Assembly (NCBI GenBank): GCA_028690055.1
Contig: JAQVBZ010000010.1
Location: 1-50,560 of the forward strand
Direction of reading: 5' to 3'
Length of the DNA stretch: 50,560 nucleotides
DNA from: Minisyncoccota bacterium
GTDB lineage: Bacteria > Patescibacteriota > Minisyncoccia > JAHIHE01 > JAGLIN01
The stretch's first letter is position 1. The number at the start of each line of letters is the position of its first letter. This document shows, piece by piece, positions 6,802 to 34,248 of this stretch. The position numbers and the translations under genes were made by a program. The notes below the pieces were generated by a model. That model did no database searches. It saw only the letters and a list, made by a program, of their open reading frames with translations, and was not told where the DNA came from.

Positions 6802-6886
6802 ATTTTTTTGAAAAGATAAAAATAAAACGCACCGAAGCGATTTTGTGCATGACGTAAAAACCGAAAACACGTTATCTATTAGCACT

Positions 6887-6916
6887 ATTATACCAATTAT
6901 ATCTCTTTCTTGTGAA
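6887..6916 (-). promoter_or_regulatory. Promoter of the chitosanase gene
   Basis: On the minus strand, -35 TTCACA (6911-6916) is followed by an 18-bp spacer and a perfect -10 TATAAT (6887-6892). It leaves a leader of about 80 nt before the ATG at 6801. Confidence 0.65.
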
Positions 6917-6983
6917 AAAAGCAATATGCGTAATCCATATCCGGACTAGTAGCTTTCGTCCCGCCTCCGTAAAGCTATGGCGA

Positions 6984-12400: not shown

Positions 12401-12465
12401 TTCGCCCCATTCGAGCGGTTTTCCGTATTACCGGAGCCCACCCTATACTTTTTCCTTACCGCCAT
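9442..12465 (-). CDS. Class A penicillin-binding protein (PBP1A type) with C-terminal Ig-like domains
   Basis: A 1007-aa bifunctional peptidoglycan synthase. The cytoplasmic N-terminus (1-78) is very basic, including a run of Lys at 65-75; a signal anchor spans 80-102. The GT51 glycosyltransferase domain has catalytic E161 in EDKKFYKHHG and the GASTITQQLIKN motif. The transpeptidase domain has SSFK (S437-K440), SLN (496-498) and KTGTT (625-629). After about residue 740 come two Ig-like modules, one beginning near SPYENQIIKDGKI, which are not part of the minimal PBP1A and may bind wall or surface partners. All catalytic motifs are intact. It has its own promoter at 12499-12527 and its own terminator. 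A 386-aa antisense frame inside it is a shadow. Confidence 0.95.
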   Translation of the reverse strand: MAVRKKYRVGSGNTENRSNGAKSNRSVLSALQENHKSKSYKKKRGIFSALHIGSRKKGFELEDIKKKKKKNKHKKFWGAFIKLSVVMLILGFLAMAAAFIYFSKDIPNPDKIADRSVAQSTQIYDRTGETLLYEIHGDEKRTLVDLDQISPYLVKASVATEDKKFYKHHGIDLKGIARSIYIDIIRHEKAQGASTITQQLIKNSVLTSEKAYTRKIKEIILALETEQKFSKDEIMEMYLNQIPYGSNLYGAEVASQTFFGKSAKDLDIAESAMLAAIPQATTYYFPYGSHPDALEKRRQYIIEEMRQDGYITDAEAKEASEVNIFSRLKPFVSSIKAPHFVMYIKDKLVEEYGEEMVEKGGLKVTTTLNYDMQLVAEDAVKKGVEYNTTHYKATNAALVATDPKTGQILSMVGSKDYFNLEAEGNVNVAISDRQPGSSFKPFVYATAFSKGYTPDTILFDVPTNFGPDGSGKDYEPKNYNLSYSGPVTIRSALARSLNVPAVKTLYLAGTNQSVQTAHDMGITTLNGSNYGLSLVLGSGEVKLLDMTGAYSVFANDGQKNAVTGIMKVEDSEGKVLKEFTSNPQQVLDTQVARNITSVLSDNVARTPTFGASSKLYFPGRPVAAKTGTTSDYKDAWTVGYTPSISVGVWAGNNSGAEMNSGGGVSAATPIWNDFLSRVLADKPVEQFTAPEKITTRKAVLNGASKTEVVVEIDKACGDKLASENTPAEQKEQRTYSEVHTILYYVNKDDPQGDYPKKPQDDPQFSRWESGVLAWAQQSMGEGVNQIAPTEVCELRSDENSPNVQIASPYENQIIKDGKIDVEAHVFAARGVKQVEFYLDNNLLKIDAESPYEGTFRINGDIDDGEHTLKVKAYDNIDSVTERDVTIIINSGSGDSGADSVYLKPITGDFPLTLASAVSVDESSVKRVEFYYQLDSIYDSDMNLVNKPGAVSKIAESRAVAPGTGNIYQVSWQEDKRYFISGKYKIYALLITDKNQQLRSNERYIEIK

Positions 12466-16035: not shown

Positions 16036-16923
16036 CTATTCCAGCGCCGCTCCCAGAAGAAAAGCGTCATCACCCAGAGAAGAATTCACCACCTTCACTT
16101 TGCGCGCCGAAGGCAGGACTTCTTTTTTTATAAAAGGCATCGCCAATTTCAATAATCTTTTTTCCTTGACCATACTGCCACCGATAACAGCGATTTCGGG
16201 ATTCAGGATATTCACCACATTGGCAAAGCCGATGGCAAAATAGGAACTGGCCTTCTCCATGATGGCACGCGACTTCTCATCTCCTCGCACCGCGTCAAAG
16301 ACGATATCTTTGGCGCCTTTTTTTTCGCCATAAACTTTTTCATACATTTTTTCCACACCCGGTCCGGCAACGTATCTTTCCCAACACCCTTTGCGTCCGC
16401 AATTGCACTGCTCACCACCAACCTCGATCACCATATGCCCGAATTCGCCGGCGATGTTGTCCTTACCGAAATAGAACTTGCCATTCATCTTTATCGCTCC
16501 GCCCACGCCCGTACCGACCGCAATAAAAACCGCATCGTCATATCCTTTGTATTTTCCAAAGTTATCTTCGCCATAAGCGAAAGCGCGGATATCGTTTTTG
16601 AGTGTGACTTCCAAACCGGTTTTTCTGGAAATGATTTTTCCCAGCGCGAAATTATTTAGCGATGCGATATTGGGCGCGCAAACCACAGTATCCCCCTTTT
16701 TATTCACTTGCCCCGCCACCGCAAAACCGATTTTCTTGAAGGTATATTTTTTCCGATAAGATTCCACCAATTCCAAAATCTTCGCTATTATGTCCTCTCG
16801 CGTTTTCGGTGTTTCATTCCTTTCGTAACCAAGGATCTTATAATCGCCGCCGCTGATTTCCACCAGCGCCGAAGCGATTTTCGTCCCACCCATATCGAAC
16901 GCCAGCACCTTGATATTTTTCAT
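16036..16923 (-). CDS. ROK-family sugar kinase (glucokinase-like)
   Basis: A 295-aa cytoplasmic kinase of the ROK family, most likely phosphorylating glucose with ATP. Visible are the N-terminal phosphate-binding loop FDMGGTKI (9-16), the catalytic Asp in KNDIRAF (D111), the GTGVGG adenosine motif (137-142), the sugar-binding EFGH (160-163) and the zinc site CNCGRKGCWE (C173, C175, C180). No N-terminal winged helix is present, so it is an enzyme and not a ROK repressor. It is the last gene of a minus-strand alpha-glucan cluster, so glucose released by the GH57 enzyme is a plausible substrate. It also has its own -10 TATAAT. Confidence 0.88.
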   Translation of the reverse strand: MKNIKVLAFDMGGTKIASALVEISGGDYKILGYERNETPKTREDIIAKILELVESYRKKYTFKKIGFAVAGQVNKKGDTVVCAPNIASLNNFALGKIISRKTGLEVTLKNDIRAFAYGEDNFGKYKGYDDAVFIAVGTGVGGAIKMNGKFYFGKDNIAGEFGHMVIEVGGEQCNCGRKGCWERYVAGPGVEKMYEKVYGEKKGAKDIVFDAVRGDEKSRAIMEKASSYFAIGFANVVNILNPEIAVIGGSMVKEKRLLKLAMPFIKKEVLPSARKVKVVNSSLGDDAFLLGAALE

Positions 16924-16973
16924 AAATTTATATGATTAGGGTTATAAGCTCCGACCATCACAGTTACCTCTTC

Positions 16974-17002
16974 ATTATACTCCATAGTTTACGACCTATA
17001 AA
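16974..17002 (-). promoter_or_regulatory. Internal promoter before the ROK gene
   Basis: On the minus strand, TTTATA (16997-17002), 17-bp spacer, perfect -10 TATAAT (16974-16979), overlapping the end of the GH57 gene. The -35 is weak. Confidence 0.45.
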
Positions 17003-18161
17003 ATTTATTCCAATGGCTATCCCAAATATTTTTTGCTATCTCTAAAAACCTCTTTTCTGCCTCCATCCTCCGAGAAGTCTCCAACGTGGATAGCGAGCGC
17101 ATCGCCTTTATAAGAAACATATTACCTCTTTCGATAGAGTCAGGATTCCAAATCGTGTCTTTCCAAATCGCGGACTTTTTGCCGGATGCCGCCCAAAAAT
17201 GGCAACTAGACAATCCCTGATCCAAAAAATTGCGGGAAACCTTATAATTCTTATCTTCTTTATTTTTTGAAATTTCCCCTATTGCAAAATTCGCAAATCC
17301 CCAAAGATCTCCTTGTATAGAGTTTCCGGGAAAATCCCAATAAGAGAACGGAATATTTTTCGCAAGATCATCTTCCGTTGATTCCCAATTGGAAGCGACA
17401 GGATCTATCTCTTGCAAATCACCTTTACCGAATTCTTCGATAAACTCCGAAATTCTCAGGGAACGGATATTCCCGTCAGTAAAAGCTTCCTTGGTCTTGC
17501 TATAAAAATCATGATGATGATGCCCATAAAGTTCTCCGTCAGTGGCGGTTATGATATTCATGCCCCCCCGCGTCGCCTCATCGGAAATCTCATTGATTTT
17601 TTCCGGAACAAAATAATCCGATACTTGGCGATCGCGAAAAACAACTTTCATATTCAGATCTTTCACTTTGAAGATTTTTTCCTTGTCAAAACTGTTGAGT
17701 TTACCACAATAGGATATCTCATCGAGAATAATCCACTCAAATCCCATCTTTTCTAAAACTTCAGCAACTCTCCTACTATAGGCCATCTCCGGAAGATAGA
17801 ATCCGCAGCGTTTATATTCTCCTCCGAAAATTTCTTTTTTTATTTTTTCATCCAGAAGTATCTGTCTCTCAATCTCTTCCTCCGGCAGCAGCGGCAGAAT
17901 CGGATGATACATAGCGCTACCCACCAGCTCTATTTCTCCATTCGAAAAAGCTCTTGAAAAATCCTCCAAAAGACCGTCATAATGATATACCACGAGCTGC
18001 TCCAAAAGCGAACCGCTCAGATTCATCGTGAGCTTTAGCCCGTCATACAAATCAAAAAATTTGGCAATTTCAAAATAGCTCTCGCGCGCCACCTGATGGA
18101 ATACCTCTTCTTCCTGTTCCGGTGGCTGATAGATATGTAAAAAGTTTATCCAGTTTATCAT
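16989..18161 (-). CDS. Glycoside hydrolase family 57 (alpha-amylase or glucanotransferase type)
   Basis: A 390-aa retaining alpha-glucan enzyme. The N-terminal NFLHIYQPP (6-14) is the first conserved GH57 region. LPEMAYS (123-129) carries the likely nucleophile E125, and ATDGELYGHHHHD (206-218) the likely acid/base D208. These enzymes hydrolyse or transfer alpha-1,4 or alpha-1,6 glucans. At 390 aa it is shorter than typical branching enzymes (over 500 aa), so amylase or a small glucanotransferase is favoured. It sits in a cluster with glycogen synthase, glycosyltransferases and a ROK kinase. The spacing to ROK is 65 bp. Confidence 0.85.
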   Translation of the reverse strand: MINWINFLHIYQPPEQEEEVFHQVARESYFEIAKFFDLYDGLKLTMNLSGSLLEQLVVYHYDGLLEDFSRAFSNGEIELVGSAMYHPILPLLPEEEIERQILLDEKIKKEIFGGEYKRCGFYLPEMAYSRRVAEVLEKMGFEWIILDEISYCGKLNSFDKEKIFKVKDLNMKVVFRDRQVSDYFVPEKINEISDEATRGGMNIITATDGELYGHHHHDFYSKTKEAFTDGNIRSLRISEFIEEFGKGDLQEIDPVASNWESTEDDLAKNIPFSYWDFPGNSIQGDLWGFANFAIGEISKNKEDKNYKVSRNFLDQGLSSCHFWAASGKKSAIWKDTIWNPDSIERGNMFLIKAMRSLSTLETSRRMEAEKRFLEIAKNIWDSHWNKFYRS

Positions 18162-18204
18162 ATTGAAGGATTAGCTTATATTCAAGGTATGAATCAGAAC
18201 AGGC

Positions 18205-18774
18205 TTATTCCTCGCCGATCCAATCTAATATTTTACGAGTCAAACTGTCATCCGGCAAAACTTCAGTTTCTATGATTAAGTACGGTAACTTAGAATTTTC
18301 TATTTCCTCCTTGTACTTTCGCTGCTGCGAGATATACCAATCTGGAGTTTTTAAAATCCGCGCATAATGGGGGTATAGCCTAAGGCGATCATCAATCCTT
18401 TTTTGTAAAAGCTCTTTATCCTCTGGAAAAGTTACCAAAACCATTTTAAAATCAAGGTCACTCAGCCTGTTCTCTACCTGGGCATAATTAATATCTTGGT
18501 TTCGATAAAGCTGATTATATATACGATCAGACAAATACATTTTTTCAACAAGCAAATTCTTTTCTTGAAGTTCTTTAAAAATATTCACGTAGTTTTCAAT
18601 TACAATTTTGCCATGCTCGGTACCATAAAACCCCAAATCACAATTAAACCAATGACATCCGTCTAAAATCACTTTTTGCTGATTATACTTGGGTTCTAAA
18701 AAATTATATACTTGCGAAGTTAACCAGCTCTTACCGGCAAGCTCCGCTCCCTCAAAAATAATATGATGCGCCAT
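18205..18774 (-). CDS. P-loop nucleoside/nucleotide kinase-like protein
   Basis: A 189-aa protein with a Walker A motif GAELAGKS (9-16), a DGCHWFNCD segment, SDRIYN (a DR-type motif near 83) and a lid-like KRIDDRLRLYPHY region. The order fits the deoxynucleoside kinase/thymidylate kinase superfamily, but no exact family match is visible and the substrate is unknown. It lies between the GH57 and glycosyltransferase genes with short gaps (43 and 42 bp), so it is probably co-transcribed; its role there is unclear. Confidence 0.65.
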   Translation of the reverse strand: MAHHIIFEGAELAGKSWLTSQVYNFLEPKYNQQKVILDGCHWFNCDLGFYGTEHGKIVIENYVNIFKELQEKNLLVEKMYLSDRIYNQLYRNQDINYAQVENRLSDLDFKMVLVTFPEDKELLQKRIDDRLRLYPHYARILKTPDWYISQQRKYKEEIENSKLPYLIIETEVLPDDSLTRKILDWIGEE

Positions 18775-18816
18775 ATAAAAATATTAAATTAATGAAGCCT
18801 GAAAGATTTTATCACT

Positions 18817-19884
18817 TTATTTTCTAAAGTTTGTTGCTGTTTTTTGATAAATTTTCTCATAACTATCTGCCATTTTTTCCACAGAAAAATTTTTCTCAAC
18901 ATGATTTCGACAATCTGCACGTTTAATCAAATCGACATTTTTTATTGCCATCTCCATTTCATGAATATTTTCCACCACGAACCCAGTTTTCCCATTTTTT
19001 ACTACTTCCGAGACTGCGGCACGATTAAGCCCAATGACTGGCGTGCCACAGGCCATGGCTTCAATCATTACCAAACCGAACGGTTCCTCCCAATCAATCG
19101 GAAAAAGAAGCGACTTGGCATTTCCCAAAAATTCATTTCTTTCCTTCGGGTCCAACACTCCCACATACTCTATTTGCCCCTTTTTAAGATATGGACGTAT
19201 TTCATTGTCGAAATATGCTTCACAACCGTAATAGCTCCCTGCAAGTTTGAGCTTCACGCCGGCCTTCCTTGCTGCTTGAACCGCAAAATGCGCTCCCTTC
19301 TCCTTAGTGAGATATCCAAGATAAGCGAAATATTCTTCCCCTTCAGACTGGAAAGTAAAATCCGCCAGTTTTATACCGTTATGGATTACGGAAGAATTCG
19401 AAGCGGGTGCGAAGCATTCTTTCTGACTGCGACTTACAAAAGTATGATGGAGTTTATAAAATCTGCTCTTACGGTCGACACAATACCTCTGCAGATGTTT
19501 TTCCTGTTTTATACAAGCAACATCCCGATGCGCACTGTGTACCGTCTCGACAATCGGCGTGTCAATAAGATTGGGGAAATAATATGCCGGTGAACCAAGG
19601 TGTGAATGGATGATATCGAATTCTTCCGCCATCTCGACGGCCTTGGTTATCACCGTCAGCGCGTAATGAGTGGAGGTTAATCCGAACAGATTACCGCGCG
19701 ACATCGGATAAGGCAGAATTTCTATCAACCGAGCACTCGTCACGGAATCGCTCGTGGCAAAAAGTGTCACCTCATGCCCGCGACTGACAAGCTCTTCGGT
19801 AAGATAATAAACCATATATTCCAAACCGTTTTTCCCTTTCGGTGGCACGCTCTCCTGAAGCGAAACCAATTGCGCAATTCTCAT
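18817..19884 (-). CDS. Glycosyltransferase family 4 (first of two)
   Basis: A 355-aa GT-B fold retaining glycosyltransferase. The N-terminus MRIAQLVSLQESVPPKGKNG with a glycine-rich acceptor loop and the C-terminal EPFGLVMIEAMACGTPVIG with the E-x7-E nucleotide-sugar motif are typical of GT4. The ATG at 19884 is chosen over the upstream one at 19950 because the protein should start directly with the first beta strand; neither has a good Shine-Dalgarno. It closely resembles the next gene in the C-terminal domain (EPFGLVMIEAMACGTPVI, SVEKM), so they are paralogues. Donor and acceptor are unknown; alpha-glucan or trehalose-like products are possible given the cluster. Confidence 0.85.
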   Translation of the reverse strand: MRIAQLVSLQESVPPKGKNGLEYMVYYLTEELVSRGHEVTLFATSDSVTSARLIEILPYPMSRGNLFGLTSTHYALTVITKAVEMAEEFDIIHSHLGSPAYYFPNLIDTPIVETVHSAHRDVACIKQEKHLQRYCVDRKSRFYKLHHTFVSRSQKECFAPASNSSVIHNGIKLADFTFQSEGEEYFAYLGYLTKEKGAHFAVQAARKAGVKLKLAGSYYGCEAYFDNEIRPYLKKGQIEYVGVLDPKERNEFLGNAKSLLFPIDWEEPFGLVMIEAMACGTPVIGLNRAAVSEVVKNGKTGFVVENIHEMEMAIKNVDLIKRADCRNHVEKNFSVEKMADSYEKIYQKTATNFRK

Positions 19885-20016
19885 CGTATCTATTTGTAAA
19901 TTGATTAAAACTTTTTTATTCAAATATCTTATACATCCCAGAAGATTCAAGAAAGATATCTTTTGTTTACGGATATTCTATTCATAAAAATAATATTTAG
20001 TAGCATCTTATAATAG

Positions 20017-20048
20017 TCCCAGATTCCTCGCTTCGCTTCGGAATGACA
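20017..20048. repeat. Single-arm family B repeat (B3)
   Basis: CCCAGATTCCTCGCTTCGCT and TCGGAATGACA match the right arm of the family B elements. It lies in the 195-bp gap between the two GT4 genes. Confidence 0.6.
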
Positions 20049-20078
20049 TATAATAATCTTTGCCGTAAAAAAGTTTTA

Positions 20079-21161
20079 TTATCCCCGTTTTCTCGATTCG
20101 AGCATTCCTTTATAAGCCGCCAAATAATTGTCCGTCATTTTTTCTACAGAAAAATTCTCTTCCACATGCTTACGACAGTCTTCGCGTTTGATAGAATCGA
20201 TATTTTTTATCGCCTCCATCATTTCCTCGGGTGTATCCACCACGAAACCTGTCACACCATCCTTCACCACTTCCGATACCGATCCTCGATTATAAGCGAT
20301 TACCGGCGTGCCGCACGCCATCGCTTCGATCATCACCAGACCGAAAGGCTCCTCCCAATCCAACGTATTAATGAACGCTTTGGAATGTCCGTAGAAATCG
20401 GGAAGATTATCTTGAGAAAAATAATCCAGAGTTATATCATCACCGAGAAGCGGCTTTACTTGTGTATTCCAATAACTTTTCTCGTTGCTCTTGTCAAATT
20501 CATAAATAAAACCGGCTATCTGCAATTTCAATCCCATTTTGCGCGCGATTTCCATCGCACCATGCGTCCCTTTCTCGCGAATAACTCGCCCTGATTGACA
20601 GAGCTTCTCCCCTCCTTGCGGATTGAATTTCCATTTTTTAAGGTTAATTCCATTATACACGTTATCGAAAATATTCAAATCCGGCATAGCTTTTCTCTGC
20701 GAGAAACTGATCGACGCAAAATTCAAATTTTCAAATTCATTATAAAGCTCCAATATCTTTAACGAGGAAAAGGTCAGCGGATCATGAATCGTCTGAAGCG
20801 TCGGCAGATGGCTCATTGCCGCAAAAGGCGCAACATTCAGAGGACGGAGGTGCATATGCAAAAGATCAAAATCGTTTTCTTCTGCATATCGATAAACCTT
20901 GGACACAAAAAGATTTTCGTAATCGAAGAAGGATTTATCATTGGTATAACGCCCGTAAATCAGAGGATTGGAAAAAGGTAGCATATCGAAGGTCACGAGC
21001 TTAGCTTTCGTTTCCGATCCGATTGGCGCAAAAAGTGTCACATCATACCCGCGAATCGCAAGCTCATCGGCAATCCATCCTGTTATATCTTGGTTGGCAT
21101 AAATTTCATTTTGAGGCACGGGCACGGGGATGGCGTTGGTGCAAGCGATTCCTATTTTCAT
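20079..21161 (-). CDS. Glycosyltransferase family 4 (second of two)
   Basis: A 360-aa GT-B glycosyltransferase. MKIGIACTNAIPVP starts at the first strand; QSGRVIREKG is the start of the C-terminal domain and EPFGLVMIEAMACGTPVIA carries the E-x7-E motif. The C-terminal half is nearly parallel to the neighbour at 18817-19884, down to IKREDCRKHVEENFSVEKM versus IKRADCRNHVEKNFSVEKM, so this is a tandem duplication; the N-terminal, acceptor-binding halves have diverged. The gaps on both sides hold palindromic repeats. Confidence 0.86.
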   Translation of the reverse strand: MKIGIACTNAIPVPVPQNEIYANQDITGWIADELAIRGYDVTLFAPIGSETKAKLVTFDMLPFSNPLIYGRYTNDKSFFDYENLFVSKVYRYAEENDFDLLHMHLRPLNVAPFAAMSHLPTLQTIHDPLTFSSLKILELYNEFENLNFASISFSQRKAMPDLNIFDNVYNGINLKKWKFNPQGGEKLCQSGRVIREKGTHGAMEIARKMGLKLQIAGFIYEFDKSNEKSYWNTQVKPLLGDDITLDYFSQDNLPDFYGHSKAFINTLDWEEPFGLVMIEAMACGTPVIAYNRGSVSEVVKDGVTGFVVDTPEEMMEAIKNIDSIKREDCRKHVEENFSVEKMTDNYLAAYKGMLESRKRG

Positions 21162-21194
21162 TTATTTATAAACTAAAAGAATTAATCGTCTGTA

Positions 21195-21301
21195 TGGAGT
21201 ATCGGGATTTATCCCGCGTCGTTGTCCAATGCGAATGAAATGAACGTCAACGACAGCTCTTCTACTCGGGGTAACAGCGCGAACTAAAGTTCGATACTCC
21301 A
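21195..21301. repeat. Family A paired-hairpin repeat (A2)
   Basis: Outer ends TGGAGTATCG/CGATACTCCA are perfectly inverted. Each arm folds on itself (CGGGATTTATCCCG and CGAACTAAAGTTCG). A second inverted pair lies inside. REPIN-like architecture. Confidence 0.8.
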
Positions 21302-21317
21302 TAATAAAATATATTTT

Positions 21318-22316
21318 CTACATAAAGTCCTCCCCCGCGAGTGCTTTCCGAAAAGCTTCCAGATTCGTTTCAAGCTTGGCGACTCCCTTTGGGGTAAGAT
21401 TGACGTAATAATCTTCTTTCTTCGGCTCCAAAATACCGAGAGCATCATAGAAAACATTTATTTTCTGAGGCACGAGACGCAATATATCGAGACGGAATAA
21501 ATGCCAAAACCCTGTCTTATCGACCTTCATCTTCTCAAAGAATTTTCCCAATACCTGCTTTTGAAATTCCCTATCAGAAATTTCAAGATAGAAAAATGCG
21601 ATATCGAACGCCATATTATTGAGATGCACATAATACCAGTCGATGATAGCGGCTTTCTCCCCGGGAGTGATAATCAGATTGCCTGGATGAAAATCTCCGT
21701 GAGTTATTATCCCGCTTTTTTCATCCAGAAGCTTTTTACCTGATTGCAAGATTTCCACCCCCTTCTCAATCTCCTCCTGCGCGAAGAACGGTGAAAGATT
21801 TCCGCGATATTTTTCATAAGCCTTTTTGAAGTCTGTATATTTTTGCGTTTTGAGCTTTATCTCTCCTTGTGCGAAAGCCGACATCTTTTGCATATTTTTG
21901 ATTCCAGAGATCAAATCCTCCAAAGGGAATTTATCGATATTACCTTTTTCCAAACCATTATAGAAATCCCCCGCTTCGTATCCTTCGATAAATCCATAGA
22001 CCATCCACTCCGGAACGTGTTCGCTGTCGCCATCTACGAATTTAGGAACCGAAAGTTTTTTGCTGCGCGCATAAAACTTCGTAAAGAGCTGATTGATTTT
22101 TATTTCCCTACGAAAAGATGCCTTTGTTTCCTGATAATCCTCTGTTCTCATCTTAAAAACCACCTTGTCGCCTTTCTTATCCCGGCAAGGAGCGGTATAA
22201 AATCTCTCCTGATGGATATTCGTATCAAAAATATATTTCGGATCGAACTCGAGCTCTGAAATCTTATCGTGAACCTTCTTCTCGATATCCGGCAAATACG
22301 GTCCGTATTTTGGCAT
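21318..22316 (-). CDS. Aminoglycoside-phosphotransferase-fold kinase
   Basis: A 332-aa protein with the APH/choline-kinase fold. The Brenner-type motif HGDFHPGN (206-213) carries the catalytic Asp, and IDWYYV (225-230) carries the metal-binding Asp. The N-terminal lobe has VVFKMR (52-57) with a probable ATP-binding Lys. It starts 4 nt from the end of glgA, so it is translated from the same transcript. A sugar-kinase role in alpha-glucan metabolism (as in maltokinases of this fold) is possible but the sequence is short for maltokinase; antibiotic resistance is not implied. Confidence 0.75.
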   Translation of the reverse strand: MPKYGPYLPDIEKKVHDKISELEFDPKYIFDTNIHQERFYTAPCRDKKGDKVVFKMRTEDYQETKASFRREIKINQLFTKFYARSKKLSVPKFVDGDSEHVPEWMVYGFIEGYEAGDFYNGLEKGNIDKFPLEDLISGIKNMQKMSAFAQGEIKLKTQKYTDFKKAYEKYRGNLSPFFAQEEIEKGVEILQSGKKLLDEKSGIITHGDFHPGNLIITPGEKAAIIDWYYVHLNNMAFDIAFFYLEISDREFQKQVLGKFFEKMKVDKTGFWHLFRLDILRLVPQKINVFYDALGILEPKKEDYYVNLTPKGVAKLETNLEAFRKALAGEDFM

Positions 22317-22320
22317 AAAT

Positions 22321-23799
22321 TTAATCTTTACTTTTTAAGGCCTTGCGATAAAGCGCCAGATATTTTTGTGCAGGCACATCCCAAGAAAAAGATTCTTCCA
22401 TGCCATTAATCGCGATCTTGCGCCAAATGTCACTATAGCGAAAAGTCTCCACTGCCCGTACAATGGCAGAGAAAAAAGCGAAAGAATCGTAAGTACTGAA
22501 AGTGAAACCGTTGCCCTTCCCCGTCTTGGGATTATAGTTATTGATCGTATCGGACAATCCTCCGGTCTTGCGCACGATCGGCACCGAGCCATAACGCAAT
22601 GAAATAAGCTGACCCAATCCGCACGGCTCGAAACGCGAAGGCATCAGGAACATATCGGAGGCGGCGTAAATGCGCGTCACATTCTTCCGTTTGAATTGCA
22701 TGGACGCCACCATCTTTCGAGGATGCTTGCTTTCCACTTTTGCGAAAAAATTTTTGTAACGCTTGTCGCCATCGCCAATGATGATAATCTGCAGTTTGAG
22801 CCGGAGCAAAGGCTCTATGACCTCCATCAACAAATCGAATCCTTTCTGTTCGGTGATGCGCGTCACCATTCCCAGTAGCGGGATATCCTTATCAACCTTC
22901 AACCCATACTCCTTTTGCAGGAGTGTCTTATTCTTGTATTTGTCATCAAAATTATTGGCATTGTATTTGGTGGCCAACCCGGGGTCAGTCCGAGGATTGT
23001 AAGCTTCATAATCTATCCCGTTCACGATACCGAAGAATCTCTTTTGCAGATGCTTCTCCGAAAGTTCGAGATGAAGACCCTGTCCGAATTTTTCTTGCAT
23101 AATTTCCTCAGCATAACACTCGCTCACGGTGTTCACCATATCAGCAAACAAAATCGCGCGCCGGGAAAAATTTATATTATTTATTTTTTTCTTGGTCAAA
23201 TTAACCAAAGGGCTCTGTCCATCGTCTACATTCTTTTTGGGAACAGTCCACCAATCATGCCCCATCTGAAAAGCAAGATTGTGAATCGTAAAAAGAGTCT
23301 TCAGATCTTTTATTTGTTCATCCGAGCTATACTCGGTTTTTATAAAATACGGGATAAGCCCAGTATGCCAATCATTGCAATGAACGATGTCCGGCTTCCA
23401 GCCTTCCAAAACCTCCAGGCTCTTGATTGTTTCCAGAACCGCCTTACAAAAAAACAAGGACCTCTTGTTTTCATCTTCATAACCGTATAAATGACTGCGA
23501 CTGCCAAAATATCTGTGTTTGTCGATGAAATATACGGGAATCTTTGTATCCAAATAAGACTTCTTGATTCTAAAAGAAGTTTCCTCACCCATCAGATCAA
23601 CCGTAAGATTATCTTGAATTATTTGGATATTGTATTTTTCTTCATCTATAACACCGTGTCTCGGCATGATTATTCTCACGTCGTAGCCCATCTTAGAGAG
23701 CGCTTTAGGAAGATCCCTTGAAACGTCCCCCAAACCTCCCGCCTTACAGAATGGGTCCAAATCGGTAGTCACAAAAAGAATTCGTAATTTTTTTTTCAT
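22321..23799 (-). CDS. glgA: Glycogen (starch) synthase, GT5
   Basis: A 492-aa GT5 enzyme that extends alpha-1,4-glucan chains from ADP- or UDP-glucose. The substrate-binding KAGGLGDV (19-26) is the conserved KxGGL signature; VHCNDWHTG, GIDYEAYNPRTD and GMVTRITEQKGFDLL follow in order, and the C-terminal PSRFEPCGLGQL with GSVPIVRKTGGL completes the donor site. Length is normal for the family. It heads the minus-strand alpha-glucan cluster. No glgC (ADP-glucose pyrophosphorylase), branching-enzyme or phosphorylase gene is seen in the window. A possible -10 TATACT lies on the minus strand at 23824-23829. Confidence 0.93.
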   Translation of the reverse strand: MKKKLRILFVTTDLDPFCKAGGLGDVSRDLPKALSKMGYDVRIIMPRHGVIDEEKYNIQIIQDNLTVDLMGEETSFRIKKSYLDTKIPVYFIDKHRYFGSRSHLYGYEDENKRSLFFCKAVLETIKSLEVLEGWKPDIVHCNDWHTGLIPYFIKTEYSSDEQIKDLKTLFTIHNLAFQMGHDWWTVPKKNVDDGQSPLVNLTKKKINNINFSRRAILFADMVNTVSECYAEEIMQEKFGQGLHLELSEKHLQKRFFGIVNGIDYEAYNPRTDPGLATKYNANNFDDKYKNKTLLQKEYGLKVDKDIPLLGMVTRITEQKGFDLLMEVIEPLLRLKLQIIIIGDGDKRYKNFFAKVESKHPRKMVASMQFKRKNVTRIYAASDMFLMPSRFEPCGLGQLISLRYGSVPIVRKTGGLSDTINNYNPKTGKGNGFTFSTYDSFAFFSAIVRAVETFRYSDIWRKIAINGMEESFSWDVPAQKYLALYRKALKSKD

Positions 23800-23840
23800 T
23801 GAAAGATCTGTTAGCTTTCTTTAAGTATAGCTCAATTCGG

Positions 23841-23880
23841 AAAAAAACAAAAACAGCGCTTATTAATGGCTGTTTTTGCT
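23841..23880 (-). terminator. Terminator of the ATP-grasp operon
   Basis: AAAAACAGC (23849-23857) pairs with GCTGTTTTT (23869-23877). Read on minus, the stem is followed by T5-G-T7. It separates the ATP-grasp operon from glgA. Confidence 0.85.
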
Positions 23881-23908: not shown

Positions 23909-24925
23909 CTATTTCTTCGTCTCAGGAAACAAAAGGTCGATGATGCCTTCGGCGACAGGCCTCGGCCTCCCTTCATAAGGAAAATGATGCATAAATATGC
24001 CCGGAGAAGGATTCATTTCCAAAACGGCATAGCTAAAATCCTTAGGTTTCTGCGAAATATCTCCTTTTACCATAATATCAACTCCCGCATAAGAAAGTCC
24101 GGGAATAGCGCTTACTGCTTTTACGGCTATCTTCTTGAAATAAGGATGAACCTTGTCGGTGAAGTCAACGCTATCCCCTCCAGTCGACAAGTTGGAGTTA
24201 TTTCGCAGATAAACCTTCTCGCCTCTGGTAATGATAGAATTGACATCAATCTTCTGAATTTTCAACTTTGCCCGGACACGATCATCAACTTCAATCGTAA
24301 TCAGGGGCTTAGAATAATTCAATCCTCTTTGAGGATCTTCATTTTTTTTCACAATCAATTCTTTGACACTGCTCTTGCCGTCACCCACAATGTTCGCCGG
24401 TTCCCGAAAGGTAACGGCCAAAACTTTCTTCCGCGTAGCTATAAATCTGAATTCCCTCCCCTTGAATTCTTTTTCGATTAATACGTATTTTTCTTTGCTA
24501 AAATATTTTTTTAAAACATTCGCGACTTCAGCGAAGTTTTTCATTCCGACAAAAACAAGATCACCGTGAGTGCCGTTAAATTTTTTTACGACGACAGGAT
24601 AAGTTATTTTCTCACAAAAGTTCCTAATATCTTCCGTGTCTCCGCAAAGGAACAGTTTTCCCTCCGTAGGACATATTCCTTTCTCTCGCAAGAAATCCTT
24701 GGTTAACATTTTATTTTCCAAAATACGATCAGCCGTGACAGAAGTCTGCGAGCTTTTGCTTCCCTGAATATATTCGCGATGCTTTTTGAATCTAAGCTCG
24801 ATGAAGGCATTCTCCTCTTGATAATCATTTATATGATTAAGCTTGATGCCTCGTTCTAATGCCGCCTCTGCCAACAACCGCGACGAAAACATTTTTATAC
24901 TCTCTGGGATTCGAATATCATTCAT
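23909..24925 (-). CDS. ATP-grasp ligase, cyanophycin-synthetase-like
   Basis: A 338-aa ATP-grasp enzyme. The YPVVVKKFNGTHGDLVFVG segment (about 110-128) is the nucleotide-binding lobe; REPANIVGDGKSSVKELI is close to the conserved VGDG-x-ST-x-x-ELI word of cyanophycin synthetases and GshF-type ligases. YAGVDIMVKGD and VLEMNPSPGI supply the Mg-binding acidic residues. It has only the ATP-grasp core, without the Mur-ligase-like half of true cyanophycin synthetase, so it is likely an amino-acid or peptide ligase of unknown substrate. It lies 19 nt after the RimK-like/protease fusion gene, at the end of a three-gene operon. Confidence 0.8.
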   Translation of the reverse strand: MNDIRIPESIKMFSSRLLAEAALERGIKLNHINDYQEENAFIELRFKKHREYIQGSKSSQTSVTADRILENKMLTKDFLREKGICPTEGKLFLCGDTEDIRNFCEKITYPVVVKKFNGTHGDLVFVGMKNFAEVANVLKKYFSKEKYVLIEKEFKGREFRFIATRKKVLAVTFREPANIVGDGKSSVKELIVKKNEDPQRGLNYSKPLITIEVDDRVRAKLKIQKIDVNSIITRGEKVYLRNNSNLSTGGDSVDFTDKVHPYFKKIAVKAVSAIPGLSYAGVDIMVKGDISQKPKDFSYAVLEMNPSPGIFMHHFPYEGRPRPVAEGIIDLLFPETKK

Positions 24926-24944
24926 TTTAGTGATAATAAACTAA

Positions 24945-26444
24945 TTAGCTTCCAGCGCTTTTGGAGAGTTCTTTCAAAGACTTAGATGGATCCACCAAAA
25001 AATGACCGAGGCTTTTCCTGCCGATGATTACGGGAAATTTCAAATCAGAACGCTCTATGACCGTAACTGGAGTATTAATCTTGATACCGGATAAAATCAA
25101 GTCCATCTTGATAATGAGACGATAAGATACTCCATGACTTGATCTGATGATTACGTTACTAAACCCTTCTCCCCATTTTGCAAATTGATCACGCAGAAGA
25201 GTATCTCTTTCTTCCTGAGAACCGGTACGCTGAAGAATATCCTTAGAGACCGCATCGAACTCATCAATGACATCACCATAGCCAAGTTCTCTGGCTAGGC
25301 TCTTGTCAATTGAAGAATAACCGGCGCCGGTGTCTACTTTGGCGCGAAGTCCTATATATTCTTTGGCGCGCTCTTTTTGAAGATTAGCCTTATCTTTTTT
25401 GGACAGCGTGCTCTCATCCGATCCTTCAGTCCGAGAGTCGACACGCCGACGTATACTGACATCCTCAATTATGCCCAAAATCTGCTTTCCGGAAATCTCC
25501 TCAATCTCCTGCTCGATCTCTCCTCCGAAAAGATCCTGCGCCACGCGGATAGCGTGCGCTTCGTTCTTGATCTTGAGTCCCTGCACTTTTTGCAGCCGAT
25601 ATTTGAGCGGTGCCAAATTGGCAATCTGGATGGAAAGTCCCGCGTGCGCGTTGATCTCCAATACCACCGGCCCCTTCTCCTTGTCGATGGCGATATCGAC
25701 TCCTACGTAGCCCAAACTGGAAGTCTTCTGGCATTGGATGGCGATTTCCAAAATAGTTTTCCAATACGGAACACGGATACCGCTCAGCTTGAGTTTGGCA
25801 TCGGGTGTCCTTTCGGTAATCTGGTCGTGCTGTATTGCCTGTGTGGTAATACCGGTCGCGATATCGATACCGACTCCGATTCCACCCTGATGCAGATTGG
25901 CTTTCCCACCAGATTCTTTGGTTGAAAGCCGAAGCATCGCCATCACCGGAACGTTGTTATAAACGATGACTCGGATATCCGGTATGCCCCGAAAAGAGTA
26001 CGGCTTTAGCGAATTATTGATTTTTATCCGCTCTTCAAAAAAGGCGATATCCTCTCCACCGAAGAGAGAATAGAACCCATCGAAAATATTAAAAATATGG
26101 CTACGAAAATCTTCCACCCCCACAGTCCGGCCTTCGCTCAAGATCCATTTGTCATTTTTCTTACCGTAAATGATCTTGATGCCATCGCCCCCCATTCCAC
26201 GGTTAGGTTTCAAAACGAAACTCTTGGGTAGACTCTCCCATTTGAAATTTTCCAGTTCCTGACGATTACGGATGATACCGTAAACTTCCGGCACGGGAAT
26301 TCCGGCCGCACGAAGAACCTCCTTGCTGCGCAATTTGTCGTTGGCAAGATCGATTGCTTTTTTGGTATTATTGGGTCCGATGTAGGAAAGATTGCGCGCG
26401 TTCATCCCCAATATGGCCCGGCTTTTTTTAATCAACGTCAACAT
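24945..26444 (-). CDS. RimK-like ATP-grasp ligase fused to a RimB-type aspartyl protease domain
   Basis: A 499-aa two-domain protein. Residues about 1-310 form an ATP-grasp ligase of the alpha-L-glutamate-ligase-like (ATPgrasp_ST/RimK-related) group: FVLKPNRGMGGDG (77-89), GYVGVDIAID (245-254) and VVLEINAHAGLSIQ (260-273). A linker of about 50 polar residues follows. Residues about 360-490 are a retropepsin-like domain of the RimB/zinc-protease-annotated family, with the active-site motif VDTGA (370-374) and the terminal VIIGRKSL. In other bacteria these are usually separate genes next to a 7TM protein; here they are fused. Its start overlaps the 7TM gene by 17 nt. Likely role: ATP-dependent addition and trimming of amino-acid tags on a membrane-associated target (inference). 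Confidence 0.82.
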   Translation of the reverse strand: MLTLIKKSRAILGMNARNLSYIGPNNTKKAIDLANDKLRSKEVLRAAGIPVPEVYGIIRNRQELENFKWESLPKSFVLKPNRGMGGDGIKIIYGKKNDKWILSEGRTVGVEDFRSHIFNIFDGFYSLFGGEDIAFFEERIKINNSLKPYSFRGIPDIRVIVYNNVPVMAMLRLSTKESGGKANLHQGGIGVGIDIATGITTQAIQHDQITERTPDAKLKLSGIRVPYWKTILEIAIQCQKTSSLGYVGVDIAIDKEKGPVVLEINAHAGLSIQIANLAPLKYRLQKVQGLKIKNEAHAIRVAQDLFGGEIEQEIEEISGKQILGIIEDVSIRRRVDSRTEGSDESTLSKKDKANLQKERAKEYIGLRAKVDTGAGYSSIDKSLARELGYGDVIDEFDAVSKDILQRTGSQEERDTLLRDQFAKWGEGFSNVIIRSSHGVSYRLIIKMDLILSGIKINTPVTVIERSDLKFPVIIGRKSLGHFLVDPSKSLKELSKSAGS

Positions 26445-27078
26445 GTTTTATTACATTCCTAAATCTTAAATATTCGCTGAGGCGAAGTCCGGACCATTTA
26501 CCCAAGAGAAAATCGATAACTAGAAGGCCGAATACGTAATAGGGATATTCCAGGACAAACCGCTGGAAGGCCCCCCAGCTGAGCACGAAATATCCTGCGA
26601 TAGATATACTGAGCGTTTCAAGAGAAAGAAATGCGGCAGTACGGAAACCTTTTTCCACCTGCGCAGAGATGAATTTCTCGATAAGTACGATCATAATCAG
26701 AATAGGCAAGATAGAAGTAGAAGAAAGCCCATAACGCTGAAAATGCCCGCCGATAGTGATGAGTGCCAGAACGGCGATGCTGATAAGCGTGAGCACGATC
26801 GCCATACGCGGCATATAAAGGAGCCGCACTTTCTTGAGAATATAGCGCGCGATGGTGCCGGTAGTAAAAATCACCAAAAAAATCGCCACCCCGTATTTGA
26901 GGTCGGTCGCCCAAAAAGCGAACGTAAGCACCAGCGGCGAATAGATACCGAAAGATTTGATACCGATAATCTGACGGAAGCCGGCGATAAGAGTCGCGAT
27001 AAACGGAAGCGCCAACAAGAGGAATACCGTGTTGATGTCGACATGCTGGGCCATAATGAAACTCACTAGCTCTGACAT
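26428..27078 (-). CDS. Seven-helix membrane protein, 7TM_transglut type
   Basis: A 216-aa polytopic membrane protein, almost wholly hydrophobic, with the GFRQIIGIKSFGIYSPLVL segment (about 33-51) and LLYMPRMAIVL typical of the 7TM domain that in proteobacteria is fused to an inactive transglutaminase. No transglutaminase-like part is present here. It is the first gene of the operon with the two ATP-grasp ligases and overlaps the second gene by 17 nt, so it probably anchors the ligase/protease at the membrane. Confidence 0.8.
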   Translation of the reverse strand: MSELVSFIMAQHVDINTVFLLLALPFIATLIAGFRQIIGIKSFGIYSPLVLTFAFWATDLKYGVAIFLVIFTTGTIARYILKKVRLLYMPRMAIVLTLISIAVLALITIGGHFQRYGLSSTSILPILIMIVLIEKFISAQVEKGFRTAAFLSLETLSISIAGYFVLSWGAFQRFVLEYPYYVFGLLVIDFLLGKWSGLRLSEYLRFRNVIKHVDVD

Positions 27079-27382: not shown

Positions 27383-27883
27383 CTATCTCGTTTTATCCTG
27401 CACCTTCCTTTCGAAATTGATAGATGAAGCGCAACAGATTGCAACCGCCAAAGCGTCGGCAGCATCGTCAGGCTTGGGAATATCTTTGAGTTTGAGAATA
27501 CTCTTTACCATCAGCTGCACCTGCTTTTTCTCGGCGCGCCCATAACCGGTCACCGCCTGCTTCACTTGCAGTGGCGTGTATTCATGGATTCCAAGTCCGG
27601 CATTCTTACCTACAAAGACCGCCACCCCGCGCGCCTGCCCCACGGAGATAACCGTCTTCTTATTTTTGAAAAAAAACAGTTCTTCAATCGCCATAACCTC
27701 AGGAGAAAATCGGTCGATAATACCCCTGATACCCCGTCCCAAAATGTCCAATCGCTCCGGCATCTCCAATCCCTTGTCAGTCAACAAGCAGCCATTCTCA
27801 ATCATCTTCAATTTGCCGCCTTCACTTTCCAAAACCCCATATCCCGTAGTGGCTGTGCCCGGGTCTATTCCCAGAATAATCAT
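27383..27883 (-). CDS. ruvC: Holliday junction resolvase RuvC
   Basis: A 166-aa RNase H-fold endonuclease that cuts Holliday junctions symmetrically. The catalytic acids are all visible: D7 in GIDPGT, E67 in AIEELFF, D140 and D143 in KPDDAADAL. Length is normal. It follows yebC on the same strand, the common yebC-ruvC order, though the 242-bp gap is filled with repeats, so read-through or a separate promoter is needed. Confidence 0.95.
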   Translation of the reverse strand: MIILGIDPGTATTGYGVLESEGGKLKMIENGCLLTDKGLEMPERLDILGRGIRGIIDRFSPEVMAIEELFFFKNKKTVISVGQARGVAVFVGKNAGLGIHEYTPLQVKQAVTGYGRAEKKQVQLMVKSILKLKDIPKPDDAADALAVAICCASSINFERKVQDKTR

Positions 27884-27959
27884 ATGTTAGTCTTATTTGT
27901 TACGATTGGCAATGACCACTTACTTTATGCAAAAACACGATATTTTTTCGCTTACCGCT

Positions 27960-28097
27960 TGTCATTCTGAGGTACCCCGAAGAATCCCGTTATGCCTCGT
28001 GTAGCAATAAAACCCCTTACTCCTCCTTACATTGGAATCCACACAATATTGTCATGTCCCCTCTCCCACTGAGAGAGGGTCGGGGTGAGGGGTAATA
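27960..28097. repeat. Family B fragment plus family E core between yebC and ruvC
   Basis: 27960-27993 (TGTCATTCTGAGGTACCCCG and AAGAATCCCGTTATG) is the reverse complement of 31461-31498. 28056-28097 repeats the CCCCTCTCCCACTGAGAGAG-type core and its GTCGGGGTGAGGGG tail. Confidence 0.6.
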
Positions 28098-28125
28098 ATA
28101 AACCATTATTCCTTTATAGCATTTT

Positions 28126-28845
28126 CTAATCCTCCAAGTTCGAATAAACTTCATTCACGTCTTCCTGTTCGTCCAGCGCATCAAATAGCGCATCGATTTT
28201 GCCGACCAGCTCTTCGCTCGCCTTAACTTTTTCTTTAGCCTTCCATTCAAAACCGCTCTCAGAAATTTCAAACCCCTGTTTTTCGATTTCACTTTTCACT
28301 TGATACAGATCTTCAGGTTTCATATAAACCACGACGACCGAATCCAGCGCGCTGATATCCTCCGCCCCCGCTTCTATCGCCGCCATCTCCACCATTTCCA
28401 TATCCATCGTCGCCGTACGTGTGATTTCGGCATAGCCGAAACGATCAAACATCCACTTGACACTGCCACTCTCGCCCAAGCGCCCGCCATTTTTGGAAAG
28501 AATATGTTTCACTTCCGAAACCGTACGGTTATTATTATCCGTAGTCGCCTCGATAATCAAAGGGGTACCTTCCGGACCATAAGCCTCATAAAGAATCTCT
28601 TCGATAGTTCCACCCGCCAATTCGCCCGTCCCTTTCTGAATAGCCTTCTTGATAACATCCGCCGGCATATTGGATTGTCTGGCTTTATCGACCGCGATTT
28701 TCAGCGTCGGGTTCATCTCAACTTCGCCTCCATGCTTAGCTGCCATTGTGATCAGCTTGCCCAACTTGGCAAAAACCTTGGATCTCTTGGCATCATTAAC
28801 GCCTTTCTGTCTCTTGATCTGAGACCATTTATTGTGTCCACACAT
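28126..28845 (-). CDS. yebC: YebC/PmpR/TACO1-family protein
   Basis: A 239-aa protein of the universal YebC/TACO1 family, regarded as a transcription regulator and more recently linked to translation of proline-rich stretches. The N-terminal MCGHNKWSQIKRQKGVNDAKR and the KHGGEVEMNPTLKIAVDKAR region are diagnostic, as is YEAYGPEGTPLIIEATTDNN. Length is normal. A strong promoter lies at 28901-28930. Confidence 0.95.
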   Translation of the reverse strand: MCGHNKWSQIKRQKGVNDAKRSKVFAKLGKLITMAAKHGGEVEMNPTLKIAVDKARQSNMPADVIKKAIQKGTGELAGGTIEEILYEAYGPEGTPLIIEATTDNNNRTVSEVKHILSKNGGRLGESGSVKWMFDRFGYAEITRTATMDMEMVEMAAIEAGAEDISALDSVVVVYMKPEDLYQVKSEIEKQGFEISESGFEWKAKEKVKASEELVGKIDALFDALDEQEDVNEVYSNLED

Positions 28846-31602: not shown

Positions 31603-34248
31603 TCAGGCAATTTTCTTATTCCCGGCTCGATTAAAATACCGCCGAAAAATAATTATTGATATAGCCAACCCAAAAGCCAGTCCAAAGAACAACGTCAAAC
31701 CGCCATTCTTCACCGCACCCCCTTCGCTTCTTGATATTATACCACCATTCTCGCTTTCCAAAAAGCGGATATCCGATTTAAAGCGTGGTAAGAGCCGATA
31801 TCCCAATGAAGTACGGCTGAATATGCCGATAATCGCCACTTTCTCACCCGATTTGATATCCGCAAAAGAAATACCCGTTTCCGGCTCGGCATAAACTTTC
31901 AGCTCTCCATCCGCAGTCTTTAAATATAAGATGTTATCTCCCGCGATATCAATCACCTCACCCTCCACCTCCACCAAACCTCCCAAACCGCCTTCCAAAT
32001 CCGCAAAATCCAAAGCGAAAATTTCTAACATATTATCGCCACTTATTTTTTCAGCCGAACCCGTTTCCGCCAATAACCTCTTTTCTCCACCCACTTCACC
32101 CAGCTGTCCGGAAATTTTTACCTCGTCACCCAAAAGCAACACAGACAAATCATCGCCGACACCGAACATCTGGACTCCCTCGCCCGAATCTTTATCCAAA
32201 ATATACAAAACATCTTTACCCAAAATACCGCGCGGCACAGAAACCAGTCCTGACAATTGCACCGCACTTCCCGATAGGAGTGTTTTGGCTTCCGCAATGG
32301 TCGCGGTAGCGTATTGCTCCTCGGTCAAAGTCGCCGTGGATAAAACTTTCCCGACCGCCTCTTCGCTTCGAGCAGTGATACTCGCCAAAGAATAATTTAC
32401 GGACGACGCCGTTTTGTTCACCACACTAGGCAGCTTAGCGTTCACAGCCGAAGGCGTTATTTTGTTTATCCAGATCCAAGACCCATCAGCACTAAGACTA
32501 TAAGAAAATCCTTCCTTAGCTTGTTGGTATGATGCGCTATCAACTACCCTCTTATCCGGCCAGAGCAGGTTAACTTCCTCATCTGAATTATTAAAGGCTA
32601 TCTTTGTCTCAGAACTACTGACAACCAAAAAACTTTTTGCGGCAATAATCCTATCGCTTGAAAAACAAAAAATCTTACTGCCCTTTTCCAAAATATCATC
32701 CAAACACCAACCTCTTAAATTTACACTTCGAGCATTCTCATTAAAAAGTTCAACCCATTCAAAACTATTACCTTGGTTGTCTCTGCCGACCGGATCGGGA
32801 AATATTTCATTGATAATCACTCCGTCAGAAAAATCATAAGATTCATCGATATCAATATTTTCTACGTCAGCGACATCATCATTAATAATCTCAACCTCCG
32901 ATTCCGACATAGTGATTATTTCCTCAGCGGCTTCAGATATTTTAATCGACTGTTTCTCCTCCGCCTCTTTTTCCTTGATAATATTTTTACCACCTGGCGT
33001 AGAAACAGAAGTCCAAAACCAACTATTATTTTCCGATGCAAAAGAAACACCCTCTTTTGCCTCATCGCTGAGAGGAGTCTTAAAAATCAGATCACCCGCA
33101 GCATCTTTTAATGCCGCACCGTCTCCCATATTATTAAGAGAAAGCTTGGTCTGGTTACTATAGAATGCCCGATACTCTTCCGGATTTATTTTTATCCCGG
33201 AAGGAAAAATATATTTACCTGTCCTACCCGCTTGATCTTCCAAGCTCCATCCGCCAAGATCCGCCGTGCCGGTGCCGGTATTATATATCTCTATAAATTC
33301 CAATTTGGCATCATCCCCCACAGGGCTTATCATGATTTCACTGATAATAATTTTCTTTTCTTCCTCTGCCACTACAACAGAAGAATCACCACTCGTGTCA
33401 GCGGGCAGAGAAGAGTCTGGCAAATTTTCATCGGACAGATTTTCTTCTATGCCGTTATCAACAACTTCAATCTCTTCGTCCGTTTCCGTCTCTTCCGCAG
33501 CCTCCCCAGCACTTCCAGAAACCTCTTCGTTTTTCTCACTCTCTACATCACCGCCCGCTCCCATCAGGCTTTTGGAATTACACGGATTCGGTAAATCTTG
33601 TATAAGAAAATCACGAGAGATATCTCCCGTGTCTTGCATTTTCCCCTCAATAATCCTGCGTGCCAAACTTTTCCCCACCGGAATGTTTTCAACAAAAACA
33701 TCTCCCACAGAAGCGGCCACCTTTCCCCAACCGACTTGATCCACCAAAACTTTTTCGCCGTCATACAAAGCAATCGAATTATCATCCGCGATAAACAATC
33801 CTTTCACGGAATAAAAATTATCCGGTTCTACCTCCCCCAGATAACATCTTTCATTTTCACCTGCTCCACACGAGTACCGAGGCGCAATCAAAAAATATCC
33901 ACCGGGCAAAATTTCCAAGCTCACATCAGAATCGTCACGATACCCCATAAGCGGATCGACTTTCGTCCCCACATCAGACAAGAGATTATATTCCGTCACT
34001 CCTGCCTTCGTTTTTTTCTTGAGCAACCAGCCTTCCAAACTTACAACAGACTCGCTCGGATTATAAAGCTCAATAAACTCATCACCAGCTTGCTCCCCGC
34101 CCGTCATAATTTCAGAAATCAAAACCTTACCCACATTATCATCTCCATTATTTTCCGTTTGCGCAAGAATGATTCTCCCGAGCACAAAAAAACTCCCACC
34201 AAGAAAGAGGAGCGCCAAGAAACTGCCTAATGTTTTTTTAAAGAGCAT
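31603..34248 (-). CDS. Secreted multi-domain lamin-tail-domain (LTD) protein
   Basis: An 881-aa surface protein. Signal peptide 1-29. Three LTD domains of the Ig-like fold begin with the same word: VLISEIMTGG (42), IIISEIMISP (300) and VIINEIFPDP (477), each with an EFIELYN or EWVELFN strand and a LxGWxL turn. Acidic Glu/Ser-rich linkers separate them (about 228-298 and 428-470). Residues about 660-830 hold two OB-like units of the kind often joined to LTDs (VLYILDKDSGEGVQMF and NILYLKTADGELKVY). A membrane helix at 850-868 with a basic tail anchors it. LTD proteins of this type are frequent in Parcubacteria; function unknown, probably adhesion or nucleic-acid/protein binding outside the cell. 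Its promoter abuts a G9 tract. Confidence 0.85.
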   Translation of the reverse strand: MLFKKTLGSFLALLFLGGSFFVLGRIILAQTENNGDDNVGKVLISEIMTGGEQAGDEFIELYNPSESVVSLEGWLLKKKTKAGVTEYNLLSDVGTKVDPLMGYRDDSDVSLEILPGGYFLIAPRYSCGAGENERCYLGEVEPDNFYSVKGLFIADDNSIALYDGEKVLVDQVGWGKVAASVGDVFVENIPVGKSLARRIIEGKMQDTGDISRDFLIQDLPNPCNSKSLMGAGGDVESEKNEEVSGSAGEAAEETETDEEIEVVDNGIEENLSDENLPDSSLPADTSGDSSVVVAEEEKKIIISEIMISPVGDDAKLEFIEIYNTGTGTADLGGWSLEDQAGRTGKYIFPSGIKINPEEYRAFYSNQTKLSLNNMGDGAALKDAAGDLIFKTPLSDEAKEGVSFASENNSWFWTSVSTPGGKNIIKEKEAEEKQSIKISEAAEEIITMSESEVEIINDDVADVENIDIDESYDFSDGVIINEIFPDPVGRDNQGNSFEWVELFNENARSVNLRGWCLDDILEKGSKIFCFSSDRIIAAKSFLVVSSSETKIAFNNSDEEVNLLWPDKRVVDSASYQQAKEGFSYSLSADGSWIWINKITPSAVNAKLPSVVNKTASSVNYSLASITARSEEAVGKVLSTATLTEEQYATATIAEAKTLLSGSAVQLSGLVSVPRGILGKDVLYILDKDSGEGVQMFGVGDDLSVLLLGDEVKISGQLGEVGGEKRLLAETGSAEKISGDNMLEIFALDFADLEGGLGGLVEVEGEVIDIAGDNILYLKTADGELKVYAEPETGISFADIKSGEKVAIIGIFSRTSLGYRLLPRFKSDIRFLESENGGIISRSEGGAVKNGGLTLFFGLAFGLAISIIIFRRYFNRAGNKKIA

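Follow-up and report, generated by a model that had tools for sequence, protein, structure and literature searches.

The three genes at positions 23909 to 27078 of the window analyzed here (50,560 nucleotides of contig JAQVBZ010000010.1, from a Minisyncoccota bacterium) are, by comparison of sequences, a Patescibacteria form of the rlo system, for which the Pseudomonas rlo operon is the closest known relative. An RloC-type ATP-grasp ligase and a retropepsin are joined in a single chain and encoded together with a 7TM membrane protein, and in this group the ligase and protease normally occur fused in this way. Taken together with what is known of the Pseudomonas proteins, the evidence leads us to favor, by a modest degree, the view that the locus encodes a single machine, associated with the membrane, that builds and trims an acidic, poly-glutamate-like peptide.

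The locus and its relation to known systems

The genes, domains, coordinates, and spacing given in the initial annotation were confirmed by an open reading frame (ORF) check, Pfam, and NCBIfam, and the features are as follows:

26428..27078, minus strand: 7TM_transglut membrane protein (RloB-like), 216 aa (ORF list and Pfam)
24945..26444, minus strand: RloC-RloA fusion, 499 aa, ATP-grasp ligase followed by retropepsin (Pfam and NCBIfam)
25581..26396, minus strand: ATP-grasp ligase domain of the fusion (ATPgrasp_ST/TIGR02291), residues 17-288 (Pfam and NCBIfam)
24978..25355, minus strand: retropepsin domain of the fusion (RimB/RloA-type), residues 364-489 (PF05618 and profile against PDB)
25326..25334, minus strand: catalytic DTG of the retropepsin, residues 371-373, next residue A as in retropepsins (sequence)
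23909..24925, minus strand: second ATP-grasp ligase, 338 aa (Pfam and NCBIfam)
23838..23880, minus strand: terminator-like hairpin and T run, 3' of the third gene (-13.7 kcal/mol, z=-5.7)

The 7TM gene overlaps the fusion gene by 17 nt, and a gap of 19 nt separates the fusion from the second ligase. As a hairpin with a T run follows the third gene, the operon probably closes there, ahead of the glycogen-type genes. That cluster (16036-23799) encodes a GT5 glycogen synthase, GH57, a ROK kinase, GT4 enzymes, and an APH-type kinase. Upstream of the operon lie ruvC and yebC (27383-28845), apparently as in about 25 relatives, a figure that stands for two gene clusters (26 and 22 loci) whose example members match in length and position. 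The window also encodes a 1192-aa protein (3346-6924) that combines a GH46 chitosanase domain with nine InlB-type B repeats, and an 881-aa protein with three lamin-tail domains (31603-34248).

All three domains previously named for the first two genes (7TM_transglut, ATPgrasp_ST, and a RimB-like protease) were matched in domain-wise HMM searches. The 7TM protein matches PF14402 in Pfam (E=1.3e-25; 90.8 bits against a cut-off of 25), has six hydrophobic segments above threshold in a hydropathy analysis, and is encoded by a single-copy gene in the source genome. The ligase half of the fusion matches ATPgrasp_ST in Pfam (E=4.6e-74, residues 17-288) and TIGR02291 in NCBIfam (317.6 bits, above the cut-off of 314.2), and its residues K37, K79, D250, E263, and N265 are invariant in 23 relatives. 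The C-terminal half matches PF05618 (Zn_protease; E=1.5e-8, residues 364-489) and scores below the NCBIfam cut-offs for RloA and RimB. As a profile built from 23 relatives finds the solved RloA-like retropepsins 9g59 (E=5.8e-9) and 9g58, the structure 2pma, and also DDI1 (E=0.005), this domain can be assigned as a retropepsin, in keeping with the fold first proposed for it. AlphaFold models made from three sequences reached a pLDDT of 58 for the 7TM protein and 47 for the fusion and were not used.

Conservation of individual amino acids adds to this assignment. Among the relatives that carry no fused MATCAP domain (described below), D371 and G373 of the D-x-G motif are kept in 57 of 59, R442 in 54 of 59, and R465 in 45 of 59. 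By their spacing (23 residues in both proteins) and in an alignment to 9g59, the two arginines correspond to R114 and R137 of Pseudomonas RloA; RloA cuts runs of at least eight glutamates, and both of its arginines are needed (PMC12239564). No relative of the fusion was found on a viral contig.

The rlo operon (RloA-RloB-RloC), described in 2025 from Pseudomonas and other Gammaproteobacteria, consists of separate genes that are genetically linked and has been connected to the cell wall and osmotic stress: its mutants show shape, osmotic, and ampicillin phenotypes, and the operon affects biofilm and antibiotic tolerance (PMC12239564). Shared with the present locus are the RloC-type ATP-grasp ligase, the RimB-type retropepsin, and the 7TM domain, all encoded together, as well as the catalytic and glutamate-binding residues. 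The kinship with a proteobacterial operon of separate genes, suggested at the outset, is also seen in Legionella, where the three parts are separate genes and a true inactive transglutaminase is present. The locus differs from the rlo operon in that the protease is fused behind the ligase and apparently cytoplasmic, rather than separate and secreted, in that the inactive transglutaminase domain is missing, and in the presence of a second ATP-grasp ligase.

The probable difference in compartment can be read from the fusion itself. Secreted RloA of Pseudomonas has a signal peptide and a disulfide formed by conserved cysteines, and cytosolic RimB has neither (PMC12239564). Hydropathy analysis revealed no signal peptide, transmembrane helix, or hydrophobic segment in the fusion, and its retropepsin domain contains zero cysteines; for these reasons the protease and the ligase probably both lie in the cytoplasm. 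As protease and ligase are placed on opposite sides of the membrane in Pseudomonas (PMC12239564), the fused layout here may reflect a different job.

A retropepsin and an ATP-grasp ligase on one chain are also known from the RimBK hybrids, for example DP2392 of Desulfotalea psychrophila (PMC11957791). There the protease is N-terminal and the ligase belongs to the RimK subfamily, whereas here the protease is C-terminal and the ligase is of the TIGR02291 type; no 7TM partner is described for the hybrids. With the CphA-type ATP-grasp of the third gene, a precedent exists for each element of the locus. In the literature searched, we found neither their combination, nor a phylum-wide fusion without transglutaminase, nor the peptidase exchange and archaeal 7TM-ligase fusion reported below, and Iyer et al. 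2009 may cover some of the neighborhoods.

Distribution of the fusion and absence of the transglutaminase

The 7TM domain was found in 87 of 287 genomes of the phylum, and a strong RloC-type ligase occurs in exactly the same 87. These counts rest on a stricter ligase profile, used because the first ATP-grasp profiles drifted into each other; weaker ATP-grasp matches elsewhere are other ATP-grasp proteins. Gene order was read in 86 loci of the 87 genomes, together with contigs from Falkowbacteria and Moraniibacteriota and the window. The ligase ORF was readable in 85 loci, and in 83 of them the protease region lies within the same ORF rather than in a separate gene, the remaining two having a different peptidase at the protease position. 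The fusion, present in about 30% of the sampled phylum genomes, is seen again in Falkowbacteria at 51% identity, in Moraniibacteriota at 44%, and in about 80 further genomes. At class level, the ligase occurs in 36 of 142 genomes, including five others of the window's own family; in all four own-family loci that were read, of which one is truncated at a contig end, the 7TM gene stands beside the fused ligase, with identities of 61-76% for the 7TM protein and 63-73% for the fusion. It is because 83 of 85 loci and the own-family loci carry the fusion that we regard it as the standard form, and an assembly error as its source was rejected on the grounds of this recurrence. The initial annotation had called the fusion unusual, which does not hold: it is the normal form in the phylum, and the reverse-order RimBK is published (PMC11957791).

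A second kind of fusion is found in an archaeon. On a plasmid of Halobacterium sp. DL1, a 584-aa protein joins the 7TM and ligase domains, both of which score over the Pfam cut-offs. Its ORF (CP007061.1; locus L125, 4839-6593) is absent from the PLSDB gene table, contains no protease, and is flanked by a transposase gene.

The transglutaminase partner is indeed missing, as had been noted, but its absence is general in the phylum. The 7TM protein of the window has neither a transglutaminase (PF14400) nor a PKD domain. The PF14400 model, which does detect the transglutaminase in Legionella, gave no match in the source genome, as in the control genomes, and failed to match any of 60 long 7TM proteins from the phylum, 36 of which have a PKD domain. 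The long N-terminal extensions of these proteins were considered as candidate transglutaminases and rejected, since they are PKD domains; a loss peculiar to this locus was likewise rejected, as the domain is absent throughout the phylum sample. The length of the 7TM protein varies with the genes that follow it: extra ATP-grasp ligases lie directly downstream in 22 of 29 loci with a short 7TM protein, against 14 of 56 with a longer one bearing the PKD-type extension.

A relationship between the 7TM protein and PgsC/CapC (PF14102), suggested on visual comparison, gained no support. Pfam gave no match, and the hhalign score against PgsC fell within the range of shuffled profiles, in a comparison that used a thin PgsC alignment whose Bacillus row was checked by Pfam match only. 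CapC was found in only one sampled genome of the phylum (G006), in which a Mur-ligase-like (PgsB-type) gene precedes one whose product has a tandem pair of CapC domains (L120:167-2490) and which also holds a 7TM/ligase locus.

The second ligase and apparent exchange of the peptidase

The added second ligase of the initial annotation is present. Pfam assigns the third protein as a RimK-type ATP-grasp, the EMNPSPG...MH motif is found in it, and it resembles the G domain of cyanophycin synthetase and the C-terminal domain of GshAB, its ATP-grasp domain aligning with the CphA1 and GshAB structures over 300 residues (E about 1e-48). It differs from both in being a stand-alone ATP-grasp, with neither the N or M domain nor the GshA part, and the NCBIfam cyanophycin synthetase model is matched only at positions 160-475 of 862 (275 bits against a cut-off of 850). 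The best relatives, which share 28% identity with it and occupy the same operon position (L146 and L147), belong to other families in the class. In close relatives the second ligase is absent, or other ATP-grasps or a second retropepsin gene stand in its place; the latter occurs in a locus of the window's own family (L142:1932-2468), as a stand-alone gene directly behind the ligase-protease fusion.

Related operons hold further enzymes. A conserved operon of family f38 (L071-L086) combines the 7TM protein and the ligase-protease with three more ATP-grasps (about 328, 565, and 318 aa), and a convergent MATCAP gene often accompanies it. Amide hydrolases of other kinds are encoded inside further operons (L077:9898-10875 and L096:9604-11442), namely an AAT-type Ntn hydrolase and a protein resembling N-formylglutamate amidohydrolase.

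In many relatives the ligase is fused to, or lies beside, a member of the family that includes the MATCAP/TMCP tubulin carboxypeptidases and bacterial QEGLA (PF08014). The human MATCAP relatives are tubulin carboxypeptidases and deglutamylases (PMC10499314). MATCAP/QEGLA forms the third domain of the ligase-protease chain in 25 of 85 loci, and here, as in all MATCAP and retropepsin counts, the rows are related by descent and are not independent events; the ligase-domain tree places these 25 proteins in two groups, of 23 and 2. HExxxH is intact in 24 of the 24 full-length fused proteins scanned. The retropepsin domain shows the opposite pattern, with D-x-G kept in only 3 of the 25 and the equivalents of R442 and R465 in none. 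As the MATCAP-fused proteins almost always lose the retropepsin site and the glutamate-binding arginines, one eraser seems to replace another.

In two further loci (L110 and L117), the retropepsin aspartate is lost and a separate MATCAP gene adjoins. A separate nearby MATCAP ORF occurs in about 17 loci, many of them with an active-type retropepsin, and within the window's own family L144 has a fused MATCAP with the metal motif HEIIH and an intact retropepsin. Since some relatives (L144, L093, and L096, for example) carry both MATCAP and an active-type retropepsin, the replacement is not strict, and the two can also act side by side. The source genome itself gave no MATCAP match, as was the case for the control genomes.

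Proposed function and alternatives

In Pseudomonas, loss of the proteases is suppressed by loss of rloB or rloC (PMC12239564), as would be the case if RloA has to remove a product of RloB and RloC. From this suppression, the cutting of poly-glutamate, and the matching arginines, a membrane-bound writer and trimmer of acidic chains can be proposed. The 7TM protein would hold the complex at the membrane and would probably present or move the product. Facing the cytoplasm, the RloC-type ATP-grasp domain would spend ATP on adding amino acids (most likely glutamate) to the carboxyl terminus of a peptide or of a peptide-tagged acceptor. The fused retropepsin, predicted to be active only as a dimer, would cut acidic chains and so set their length, and may also stimulate the ligase by analogy with RimB. 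The second ATP-grasp ligase could start, cap, or diversify the chain. We infer glutamate as the substrate from RimK/RimB and RloA, and infer also the acceptor, the direction of transport, the role of the second ligase, and a purpose in the cell envelope. As a type of activity, the building and trimming of peptides at the membrane proposed in the initial annotation is well supported, with protein tagging only a candidate role. That the pathway is streamlined is doubtful, as many relatives of this type have more, not fewer, ligases and peptidases.

A serious rival, though on balance an unlikely one, is modification of cell-wall precursors: a lipid-linked or peptidoglycan peptide, displayed by the 7TM protein, would receive amino acids from the ligases, and the peptidase would edit them. 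It draws its weight from the Pseudomonas shape, osmotic, and ampicillin phenotypes and from penicillin-binding proteins: a class A enzyme with Big_7 lies directly downstream in about nine loci (identified by Pfam in one and by cluster and length in the others), and the window has its own (9442-12465), about 11 kb away. D-Ala-D-Ala ligases, moreover, also belong to the ATP-grasp enzymes. This adjacency is mostly confined to one family (f30), however, the operon has no Mur or lipid-II enzyme, and the protease pocket suggests acidic chains.

It is distinctly less probable that the locus performs RimK/RimB-type addition and removal of glutamate on ribosomal protein S6 in the cytoplasm, with the membrane protein incidental. 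RimK and RimB do make and cut poly-alpha-glutamate, RimB stimulates RimK, and RimBK hybrids are known (PMC11957791); both window ligases fall in the RimK superfamily, and the genome has no other RimK-like match. Yet the fusion ligase is TIGR02291, only distantly similar to RimK, and the 7TM protein and the ligase are never separate in 87 genomes. The long encoded Lys/Glu-rich tail of the genome's S6, moreover, ends in ...LEDTIV rather than Glu, with short Glu runs compared with the eight required by RloA. The S6 encoded on contig C34 of genome G000 (L127:1042-1842) carries a C-terminal extension that is rich in Lys/Glu and about 130 residues long.

A cyanophycin-like poly-amino acid, retained by the cell for storage or osmotic purposes and depolymerized by the protease, is improbable: the second ligase does equal the G domain of CphA1, whose role is to extend the aspartate backbone, but there is no Mur-ligase-like M domain to add arginine, and the CphA-like gene, missing or swapped for other ATP-grasps in close relatives, is therefore not core to the system.

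A membrane-associated machine for acidic peptides thus remains our preferred reading. The ligase-protease and 7TM-ligase fusions indicate that all three components act together and give single-chain enzymes open to direct assay, and the peptidase exchange points to an acidic peptide as the shared substrate. This bears on the function of the rlo operon, whose published picture separates protease and ligase across the membrane. RloB-like proteins, reported as 96% proteobacterial (PMC12239564), are extended here to archaea and to a large group of bacteria with reduced genomes. More tentatively, Patescibacteria may commonly hold a membrane-anchored write-and-erase machine for acidic chains, with the eraser fused to the writer and exchangeable between unrelated peptidases (a retroviral-type aspartic protease in some lineages, MATCAP in others). 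If true, such a machine would parallel, in prokaryotes, the cycle of ligases and carboxypeptidases that acts on tubulin tails.
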